Shown here in pieces: positions 36,391 to 40,687 of a stretch of DNA of 55,709 bases. The position numbers were made by a program, and so were the translations under genes. Numbering within the stretch: the stretch's first letter is position 1; the number at the start of each line of letters is the position of its first letter. Under the pieces are notes generated by a model. It ran no database searches, was not told where the DNA came from, and saw only the letters and a list, made by a program, of their open reading frames with translations. This stretch comes from Verrucomicrobiota bacterium (GTDB lineage: Bacteria > Verrucomicrobiota > Kiritimatiellia > SS1-B-03-39 > UBA6053), in the NCBI GenBank assembly GCA_020831625.1, contig JAFIGD010000033.1:1-55709 (forward strand), written 5' to 3'.

Positions 36391-36930
36391 TCAGGCTTTA
36401 TCCGGCGAACGCTGCTTTTGGGGATCGAGTTGAGCGGGCCGCCCGGTGAAGGTGCGGCAGATTTTGTCGAGAAGGTCGGAGGTGGAGAGGCCGTCGACCA
36501 TGGGAGCGAGGCGGACTTCGCCGCCGTTGGCCTCGACAATGTCGCGGCCGCTGACGTAATGGCTCCAGTCTTCGGCTTTGACGAGGATATCGGGCAGAAG
36601 CTGCGCGATAAGATCCTTGGGCTCGTCCTCGTCGAAAAGCACCACGGCGTCGACGCATTCGAGGGCGGCCAGCAGGGCGGCGCGGTGGGGTTCGGCGACC
36701 AGCGGCCGCTTGTCGCCTTTGATGCGGCGGATGGAGGCGTCGGTGTTAAGACCGACGATCAGGCGGTCGCCCTGGTTGCGGGCCCATTCGAGATAGGCGG
36801 TGTGCCCCGCGTGCAGCAGATCAAAGGTGCCGTTGGTCATGACCACGGTTTCCTGGGCGGCCTGCCAGAGACACCGCAGCTCTTTCGCGGTTTCCGGCGG
36901 CAGGATTTTGCTTTGTGCGGATAAAGACAT
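36391..36930 (-). CDS. rfaE2: D-glycero-beta-D-manno-heptose 1-phosphate adenylyltransferase
   Basis: A 179-residue nucleotidyltransferase. The HxGH signature appears as TNGTFDLLHAGHTAYL; the strand VGLNTDASIRRIKGDKRP and the metal region VLFDEDEPKDLI follow, then YVSGRDIVEANGGEV. This is the separate adenylyltransferase half of HldE. It makes ADP-D,D-heptose, substrate of HldD at 15.7 kb. The kinase half is not in the window. The tail (SPDKA) is short. Confidence 0.93.
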   Translation of the reverse strand: MSLSAQSKILPPETAKELRCLWQAAQETVVMTNGTFDLLHAGHTAYLEWARNQGDRLIVGLNTDASIRRIKGDKRPLVAEPHRAALLAALECVDAVVLFDEDEPKDLIAQLLPDILVKAEDWSHYVSGRDIVEANGGEVRLAPMVDGLSTSDLLDKICRTFTGRPAQLDPQKQRSPDKA

Positions 36931-37420
36931 GCCTTCCTTGTGTCAGATTGTCACCGGAAGTTCAAGCATTGAAAGGAGCGCCAACCGTGCGCGCCATATT
37001 ACGGGGAAAGTTGAACCACGGACCCGCCTGCAACGACTATGTCGCAGACATTGCGGGCAGGTGGACACGGATGGACACGGATATTTACCCGCCGCAGGTT
37101 GGCTTTGGGGCACGTCATTTTTGAACAGAAGGAAGCAAAGAGAGCGAAGGGCTTTGAGGCAGGAGGGATAAAACCACTGATGACACTGATGCACACTGAT
37201 CTTTGGGGCAGGGGGGCTTTGAGGCGGAAAAAGTTTAACCACGGATGGATGAACACGGATCTTTGGGGCAGAGAGGTGGGGCATAGCCTGGTGGGAGTAG
37301 ATCCCGGAAGAAGACCAGGGAGAGTGAGAGACAAGAGAGACAAGGGGCGGTAAGGCGGGGAGGGGAGAGAAATACACCGGGTAAAAATTTCATTTTTCTT
37401 CGTGCACTCTTTTGAAAACA
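36931..37420. repeat. Mosaic of CACGGAT-type intergenic repeats
   Basis: No gene is seen. Short units repeat: ACCACGGA and GGACACGGAT near 37015-37082, then GATCTTTGGGGCAG at 37198-37211 and again at 37258-37271, exactly 60 bases apart. AACAGAAGGAAGCAAAG at 37124-37140 resembles AACAGGAGGCAGCAGAG at 55485-55501 (19 of 26 over the longer unit). Such texts are dispersed repeats rather than genes. Open frames here are products of the repeat. Confidence 0.65.
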
Positions 37421-38646: not shown

Positions 38647-40062
38647 ATGAATGTCCATTCTCATTCCCGCAAATCCGGTCAGACGTTGATTTTCATGACC
38701 ATGGTGGTGGTGATGCTGGCGTTCGCGGCCCTGTTTTATTTTGACGTGCATAAGCTTTTGCATGTGAAGGCGGTGAGCCGGAACGCGGGGGATGCGGCGG
38801 CACTGGCGGGGGCGCGCTGGCAGGCGATCAGCCTGAATTTAACCGGCGATCTGAATTTGGCGCAGGCGCTGGCGCACATCGAGAGCCTGTCCGCGGGTCA
38901 GCCGCCGGGGGCGGACGCGGAGGCGATTGAGGAACTGCAGCGCCGCATCGCCTTCGCGGGTCCGGTGTTCGGATTCATGGCGGCGCAGCAGGCGGCGAAA
39001 AACAACGGCATCTTTAATCAGCCGCAGTTTGCTGATTCGCTCCGGGCCCATATTTCAATTGTGGAGACGGAATATGTGCAGACGCTTCCGGAGCCGTTCG
39101 CACCCATGCCGCCGTATGGGAACGCCTGGATGGAATACGCGGATATGTTGCGGGTGTTTGTTGAGAACGGTCTGGCGGTCGACGCCGCCTGGACCTATTT
39201 CGGCGCGTATGCCAACACGAATCATCTGTTGCTGAACCCGGCGTTTTACGACGCGATCGCGGGACGGAGCTGGTGCTGGTTTCACAACAACGCGATGGAC
39301 ACCCTGCAGAATTATTCCGATTGGACGGAGTGGGGCGATTTGCCGCTCATTTTGCGGGCCCGTCCGGTGAACGCCGAGGTGTTCGGGCTGCATTTGCAAC
39401 GCTTCGGGGTCATTGACCGAATCCCGGTGCTGAATCCCGATTTGAGCTGGGCGGAAACGTTCACCCGGCTTCGGAATGCAAGGGCGGACGCCGATCCGGA
39501 ACTGCTTGAGGACTACGATGCCAACTGGGCCTATTATTCGGGCCGCTGGTCGAGTTGGTCCGCGCGCATTCCCGAAGGCTTTCCCTGGGATGCGGATATC
39601 CGTCCGGAGTTCAATTACGGCGGCGCGGACGCGGCCGTGAGCATTCGGACAGAAACGGAGCGGCATACCGGCTTCCAGGGCGGTGACACGGTGAATTGGA
39701 CCGCCGGCGCAAAGCCTTTCGGCGCTTTGGAGGGGCCCGCGCGTCCGAACACGTATGGTCTGGTGCTTCCCGCGTTCACGGATGTGCGGCTGATTCCGAT
39801 TGACGCCACTCTCAGCGCCGGCGGCGGGGCGCTGCGTCCGGGCTGGCTGGAGTTTATCATGATTTATCTGCCGGATTACATTGCCCACGGCCCCAGCGTG
39901 CTGCCTCCGGGCAACTGGTACGCGCAGCAACTGCGTACCTGGGAGCAAAATCAGTTCCGTCAATCCGGGATTCAGTGGATCCTCGCCAATTCCGCCCGTT
40001 GTCACCGTCCGCCGCCCGGCTCCGGCGGCGGCAGCTCAGGAGGGACGATGCATGGACACTAA
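38647..40062 (+). CDS. TadG-like pilus-assembly protein
   Basis: A 471-residue protein. RKSGQTLIFMTMVVVMLAFAALFYFDVHKL at the start is the Tad-like transmembrane and processing segment, followed by AVSRNAGDAAALAGARW. The large extracytoplasmic part has no family I recognise. It ends with a Gly/Ser/Pro tail. The next gene begins inside its last 11 bases. It is probably a scaffold for pilin assembly. Confidence 0.72.
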   Translation: MNVHSHSRKSGQTLIFMTMVVVMLAFAALFYFDVHKLLHVKAVSRNAGDAAALAGARWQAISLNLTGDLNLAQALAHIESLSAGQPPGADAEAIEELQRRIAFAGPVFGFMAAQQAAKNNGIFNQPQFADSLRAHISIVETEYVQTLPEPFAPMPPYGNAWMEYADMLRVFVENGLAVDAAWTYFGAYANTNHLLLNPAFYDAIAGRSWCWFHNNAMDTLQNYSDWTEWGDLPLILRARPVNAEVFGLHLQRFGVIDRIPVLNPDLSWAETFTRLRNARADADPELLEDYDANWAYYSGRWSSWSARIPEGFPWDADIRPEFNYGGADAAVSIRTETERHTGFQGGDTVNWTAGAKPFGALEGPARPNTYGLVLPAFTDVRLIPIDATLSAGGGALRPGWLEFIMIYLPDYIAHGPSVLPPGNWYAQQLRTWEQNQFRQSGIQWILANSARCHRPPPGSGGGSSGGTMHGH

Positions 40063-40687
40063 GAGAGAGGTTAGAGGTCAGAGGTTAGAGGGTAGAGCTA
40101 AGAGGATAGAGGATAGAGGTCGGAGGAGTGCATTGCACCCTCTGAATTCTGCCCTCTACCCTCTACCCTCTGAATTTCCCTCCAAATCCGGCCAGTCGAT
40201 CATCGAATTCTGCATCGGGCTGGTGGGGATTTTGACGGTGATTGCGGGGGTGTTTCAGTTGGGCCTGCTGGGCATGGGGCGCACGCGGGCCCGGGTGCAG
40301 GCGACCCGAATCGCCACCGAACGCAGCATGATGGCGGAAAGTGTTTCAGGCGTGTTTGTTCCCCAATATATTTATCAGATGGACGCGGGGCGGGACGGAT
40401 ACAGCTATTCGGTGGATGACCGGGCCATCACTTCGAATCCGGATGAGGCGTACGACCGGCTGGTGCGTCCCATGGCTCCGAATCAGATGCGGATGTACTC
40501 GCCCCGCAGCGAGGTGTCTCAGATGCGGGATTCGACCGATATGATGATGGCCATGGGGCTGGTTCCCGGCACCGGCCGCACCAATGGAATTCCGGTCCTG
40601 CCGGTGGTCCGCCGCCTGTTTTTTAATCGTCAATCGGTGGACATCGATGTGCGGGTCTGGTCCACCCGCACCGGAGACATTTACTGA
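40052..40687 (+). CDS. TadE-like pseudopilin with repeat-derived leader
   Basis: A 211-residue protein. The TadE-type motif KSGQSIIEFCIGLVGILTVIAGVFQLGLLG begins only near residue 46. Residues 1-45 (MDTKREVRGQRLEG and on) come from a repeat with 20-base inverted arms (40078-40097 and 40154-40173, one mismatch). No ATG or GTG lies between the repeat and the motif, so the repeat supplies the only start. Other pseudopilins here have leaders of 8-30 residues. The mature domain carries MRMYSPRSEVSQM and RLFFNRQSVDIDVRVWSTRTG. It overlaps the next gene by 1 base. Confidence 0.72.
   Translation: MDTKREVRGQRLEGRAKRIEDRGRRSALHPLNSALYPLPSEFPSKSGQSIIEFCIGLVGILTVIAGVFQLGLLGMGRTRARVQATRIATERSMMAESVSGVFVPQYIYQMDAGRDGYSYSVDDRAITSNPDEAYDRLVRPMAPNQMRMYSPRSEVSQMRDSTDMMMAMGLVPGTGRTNGIPVLPVVRRLFFNRQSVDIDVRVWSTRTGDIY
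40061..40183. repeat. GAGG/CCTC inverted-repeat element inside a gene
   Basis: TCAGAGGTTAGAGGGTAGAG (40078-40097) pairs with the complement at 40154-40173, 19 of 20. Around them are further GAGGATAGAG and CCCTCTGAA units. RNA from here would fold into a long hairpin at the start of the coding sequence. It looks like a dispersed intergenic repeat inserted in frame. Confidence 0.8.

Follow-up and report, generated by a model that had tools for sequence, protein, structure and literature searches.

Heptamer-repeat hairpins in pseudopilin leaders of Kiritimatiellia: in-frame insertions that are probably tolerated because the leader is removed

The tad pilus locus described here raises the question of how a hairpin repeat came to occupy the 5' part of a pseudopilin gene, and how the gene can carry it. 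The locus lies in a window (the whole stretch of DNA analysed, 55,709 nucleotides) of a 4.9-Mb genome, here called G000, which the names of its closest named relatives (MAGs labelled 'PVC group' or Verrucomicrobia, and Kiritimatiellaeota bacterium B1221) place in the class Kiritimatiellia. It was compared with genomes of a sister species (G002), of another member of the same genus (G001) and of further relatives. The operon consists of Flp-like genes, a first TadE-like gene (here TadE2), a tadG-like gene, followed by an open reading frame for a TadE-like protein of 211 amino acids, and genes for RcpC and an FHA-ATPase; the Pfam matches among the neighbours of the TadE-like gene are Tad, Flp_Fap, RcpC and T2SSE. 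The TadE-like protein itself has a prepilin-type motif G/xxxxE with a hydrophobic stretch after it (SGQSIIEFCIGLVGILTVIAG), and G000 has one prepilin peptidase (PF01478, E=5e-20). With the known TadE, TadG and Flp pseudopilins (Pfam PF07811, PF13400 and PF04964) the 211-residue protein shares the GQ motif, the Glu at +5 and the setting in a tad operon that also has genes of the RcpC and TadA types; it differs from them in its Pfam TadE score of 13.3 bits, which is below the cut-off of 22.9, and in a leader of about 47 residues that ends in G. A TadE match at E≤0.1 was obtained for 25 of its 28 aligned orthologues, the best being 2.3e-7.

The 20-base inverted repeat with 19 complementary positions that the preliminary description had reported is indeed present, and the reading frame passes through it into the motif SGQSIIEF, which follows the repeat as had been stated (Table 1). 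The left arm consists of tandem heptamers AGAGGNN, visible as period-7 self-similarity, and the right arm of their heptameric complement CCTCTNN; a longer pairing of 35 nt (77%) was detected at the same hairpin. A chance palindrome was ruled out, as the inverted-repeat score is 17.5 and the maximum in 712 kb of Markov-shuffled sequence was about 15. In all six frames of the insert, only that of the tadE-like gene is open, stops being present in each of the other five.

Table 1 Features of the tadE-like locus (positions in the window)
Feature	Position	Strand	Remarks
tadG-like gene	38647..40062	+	Pfam Tad PF13400, E=2.8e-6; stop overlaps the tadE start
Shine-Dalgarno-like AGGAGGG of the tadE-like gene	40038..40044	+	Within the end of the tadG-like gene, outside the repeat; no difference in G002 over 40036-40064
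TadE-like pseudopilin ORF, 211 aa	40052..40687	+	M1 at 40052; conserved GQ motif SGQSIIEF from 40187; mature part about 165 aa
Inserted heptamer-repeat hairpin	40064..40186	+	123 bp, 41 codons, residues 5-45; not in short-leader orthologues; period-7 array
Left arm of inverted repeat, TCAGAGGTTAGAGGGTAGAG	40078..40097	+	19/20 complementary to right arm
GGAGGAG-TGCA-TTG in hairpin loop, possible alternative in-frame start	40122..40135	+	TTG and GGAGGAG also in G002
Right arm of inverted repeat, CTCTACCCTCTACCCTCTGA	40154..40173	+	19/20 complementary to left arm

The comparison with repeat-free orthologues that had been proposed as a check was made. Four relatives, G005, G007, G008 and G010, share both the start and the SGQ motif with few residues between them, the leaders up to the motif being VDIKKQHPTKSGQ, MDIKHHKSGQ, MDTKTLHSKSGQ and MDTNHKKSKSGQ, respectively. 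The leader of Kiritimatiellaeota bacterium B1221 is unfilled as well. Since these leaders are short where the tadE-like gene of G000 has 41 extra codons, the repeat has been inserted, at a place 3' of codon 4 and 5' of the motif. Used as a query against its own genome, the insert gave 54 matches, the weakest of which are likely due to chance, at about 30 further places; the matches inspected were arrays of its heptamer in other arrangements. Related genomes gave 43 (G002), 15 (G001) and 1 (G003) matches. The same leader was thus found in G002 together with dispersed repeats, rather than in a genome that lacks the repeat elsewhere, the finding that would have refuted the earlier proposal. The proposal that a mobile repeat became part of a gene fits these data well, with a dispersed family, empty sites in orthologues and only the tadE frame open, except that the repeat does not appear to have brought the start. 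The repeat would have to be mobile. MITEs have terminal inverted repeats and a target-site duplication; the repeat has inverted arms, inspection of the empty sites in G005, G007, G008 and G010 gave no clear target-site duplication, and no transposase or other mobilising enzyme was identified for it. In the same genome, genes of the four-helix-bundle type PF05635 (23S rRNA intervening-sequence type; L061, L062 and others) are flanked by short tandem-repeat arrays, in some cases with opposite orientation on either side, and may be connected with the spread of the repeats.

The start of translation was placed within the repeat by the preliminary description, which had residues 1-45 encoded by it and its flanks. 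The ATG at 40052 is preceded at 7 nt by AGGAGGG and overlaps the tadG-like stop codon TAA (40060-40062), and this arrangement of start codon, ribosome site and stop is kept in relatives without the repeat. An origin of this start codon from the repeat is therefore unsupported, the ATG being older and outside it, and the residues encoded are 5-45. Contrary to the earlier statement that no start codon lies between the repeat and the motif, the loop contains an in-frame TTG (40133), 4 nt after a Shine-Dalgarno-like GGAGGAG (40122-40128), so that an internal start is possible. In that case the repeat would provide a start after all, with an untranslated first half. Both elements are kept in G002, and AATGCAG, the heptamer of a related family (f3), itself has ATG codons, of which some are in frame with the GQ motif. 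We consider translation from the TTG very improbable, given the good Shine-Dalgarno sequence of ATG 40052 and its conservation in repeat-free relatives, the position of the TTG in a strong hairpin, and the fact that the frame is open 5' of it where both other forward frames have stops. TTG is also usually a weaker start codon.

The insertion is one of a series. A profile built from the 28 orthologues matched 150 of the 346 genomes of the class, from which we retrieved 80 loci, each at most 10 kb long; many of the assemblies are fragmented. The inverted-repeat count was too weak a measure, as terminators and imperfect arms blur the signal, and recurrence was therefore scored as period-7 self-similarity, for arrays in the 200 bp that precede the GQ motif of tadE. 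The tadE leaders of these 80 tad loci contained 23 such arrays in 20 genomes, against at most 4 in other 200-bp bins; control lags of 5, 8, 10 and 11 gave 0-1 genomes in the leader bin, and lags 6, 9 and 12, which also score there, are attributed to glycine codons at the end of tadG. The units vary, with AGAGGTT in tadE of G000, a GTGCGGA type in G001, and GTCAGCG/GTCTGTC, AATGCAG/CATTCTG, GAAGTCA/CCGACCT, GAGGACA/CCGTCCT and others elsewhere, and right arms often finish 2-9 bases 5' of the motif. In all 20 genomes the array can be read without a stop in the GQ frame, compared to 19 of 40 cases for the other two frames. The 20 filled leaders represent about eleven families rather than 20 independent events.

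In a strict automatic test, 23 of 48 arrays had a GQ motif at most 60 nt downstream, where 1.7 were expected and 7 was the maximum in 1000 random placements. Another 13 of the remaining 25, read by eye, lie in leaders of Flp, TadE2 or TadG (e.g. MVNGQWSMVNGQWSMVNGQW...SSRGQAMAEY), which brings the arrays in pseudopilin leaders to 36 of 48, or three quarters, including the 13 assigned by eye. Canonical prepilins of the FTLIEL type had a heptamer-array leader in 3 of 53 cases, one of them in G000. Spread of such leaders through the phylum was rejected, as none of 39 TadE homologues from its other classes had one. Leaders may be a preferred site of insertion or may merely be more tolerant, and they may be the loosest sequence of a tightly packed tad operon.

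Arrays are also found elsewhere, which counts against an account based on removable leaders. A gyrase/topoisomerase A-like protein, named from its sequence motif, has an in-frame array in its N-terminal extension in G000, G001 and G002, and none in G003; at this site (L027, about 1480-1660) AGAGGTC and GTCACTC arrays are in frame, and those of G001 and G002 differ. Heptamer arrays were also seen some 2.2-2.9 kb past the tadE motif, within or close to the Tad FHA-ATPase gene (L162 = G187; L143 = G331), and one of those in G331 is in frame, with the FHA part on one side and the ATPase part on the other. With the topoisomerase A-like N-terminus and the Tad ATPase region filled in this way, exclusive occurrence in prepilins was rejected.

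In another possible origin, slippage and snap-back copying at exposed positions would generate the arrays on the spot, without insertion of an element. A site may indeed persist while its unit changes: an intergenic site just past a coding end (L200, about 1184-1225; G000:C7:3913-3951) has an AGAGGTC array in G000 and a GAATGCG array in G002, and the leader of one minor prepilin (GFTLLEILLVV) has a GTCACTC array in G000 (L200, about 1430-1500) and an AGAGGTC hairpin in G002 (L232). The number of units in the topoisomerase A-like array varies as well, with several indels between G000 and G002. An origin in place nevertheless seems rather unlikely, as one heptamer family at some 30 genomic places would need copying of units between sites, and relative to the empty sites the insert is a whole two-armed block.

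The insert in the tadE-like gene has been kept to an unexpected degree. In G002 it has equal length, no indels and 115 of 123 identical positions (93.5%), compared to 384 of 495 (77.6%) in the mature part of tadE (Fisher p = 2e-5) and 1139 of 1405 (81%) in tadG (Fisher p = 2e-4). At third codon positions the identity is 88% in the insert and about 60% in the genes. The insert is part of a block (40036-40186) that has no differences up to 40064 and 8 in the 123 positions thereafter, between flanks at about 80%. The spacer before the first Flp-like gene (about 36900-37400; 36987-37387 compared) can barely be aligned with G002. A neutral passenger would not be expected to show higher conservation than the gene around it, and either selection or recombination between lineages could explain this comparison of two genomes. 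With recombination, the filled site would have been exchanged between the G000 and G002 lineages after their split by recent homologous recombination, the insert otherwise being a neutral passenger. The sharp edges of the block and the different heptamer elements of the two genomes at another prepilin leader would agree with such an exchange, which we regard as a less probable course of events, on balance doubtful; the edges lie near functional boundaries (Shine-Dalgarno sequence and motif), as selection would also give, and only two genomes were compared.

Selection might act on the mRNA. The strong fold across the start that had been predicted was borne out by calculation for G000 (-75.5 kcal/mol, z = -4.2), and in it AGGAGGG is paired with UUCCCUCC at the end of the insert. 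The insert could thus have been taken over as a control element, with a hairpin that tunes translation of tadE after tadG, perhaps via pairing of the Shine-Dalgarno sequence. The conservation of positions 40036-40186 in G002, far above that of the flanks and including third codon positions, agrees with such a role, as does the fact that all 3 changes in the long stem keep the pairing. The in-frame array of the topoisomerase A-like gene evolves fast, with indels; repeats are therefore not conserved by default. Yet a role in control is quite improbable. The best fold in G002 is weaker (-64.5, z = -2.5) and leaves the Shine-Dalgarno sequence unpaired, 26-34% of random substitution sets preserve the structure as well as the observed ones, most orthologues have no hairpin, and the leader region is not generally more folded (mean z -0.33 in 80 genomes). 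Sequestration of the Shine-Dalgarno sequence is thus not a conserved feature, and a regulatory fold conserved across the family is unsupported.

The explanation that we prefer, with a probability of roughly 0.7, is that in-frame insertions of heptamer hairpins are tolerated because the pseudopilin leader is removed. Prepilin leader peptides, the length of which varies, are located in the cytoplasm and cleaved off by prepilin peptidase (PMC10191384). A dispersed, two-armed tandem-heptamer repeat would have entered the tadE-like gene in frame, after codon 4 and ahead of the SGQ motif, either before the split of G000 and G002 or in one lineage from which it passed to the other. Translation from the old ATG would read through the hairpin and add 41 residues to the leader, and this leader, on the cytoplasmic side, should be cut by prepilin peptidase after the G of SGQ. 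The mature pseudopilin would be unchanged, and the insertion therefore tolerated. Such tolerance would also explain why, throughout Kiritimatiellia, different heptamer hairpins have come to fill Tad pseudopilin leaders again and again. It is conceivable, though unlikely, that more has happened, namely that the leaders of pilus-type proteins are favoured by heptamer palindromes, some of which became functional, and that selection now holds the insert in tadE, either as a segment of the leader or as an element of the mRNA. This would be a selfish repeat domesticated into a secretion leader.

The closest parallels to tolerated palindromes in genes are two groups of protein-coding palindromes, the Rickettsia palindromic elements (RPE) and those of Wolbachia, which are short (100-150 bp), dispersed, located in frame in genes and co-translated (PMC10969869, PMC2229807). 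The tadE insert resembles RPEs in being a palindromic repeat of 123 bp whose heptamer arrays are shared by about 30 other places, and in its in-frame position in a gene whose relatives lack it. However, RPEs are families of fixed sequence, whereas the arms in Kiritimatiellia consist of tandem heptamers with a unit that changes from genome to genome and, at one site, even from one sister species to the other; the copies share only heptamer units, with variable arm length and unit, and have no single conserved sequence or peptide. They also show a preference for removable leaders in pilus-type proteins. Direct repeats of heptamers occur as the STRR of cyanobacteria. The TAACTGA repeats of Beggiatoaceae and Cyanobacteria are likewise dispersed arrays of 7-base units, many near start codons, but they are direct, nearly all intergenic and of one unit (PMC4679880), while the arrays in Kiritimatiellia are two-armed, often in open frames and of many units. 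A MITE-type repeat also contributes to a signal peptide in Yersinia, where the palindromic sequence YPAL/RU-2 has become fused to YPO1552 (PMC2229807); that case concerns the signal peptide of one gene, and the present one prepilin-type leaders, repeatedly. The open-access literature searched contained no account of pseudopilin leaders with heptamer palindromes, which does not prove that there is none.

Palindromic repeats that seem to be translated in frame would thus occur in Kiritimatiellia as a second lineage, distant from Rickettsia, and a simple reason can be offered for their location, i.e. a peptide that is cut off. Some caution is required with predicted pseudopilin leaders in these genomes, as they often consist of repeat sequence. 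The recurrence throughout the class, with different units at one site, provides a natural series in which the entry of repeats into genes, the keeping of a site while its unit changes, and the gain of function by a leader may be followed.
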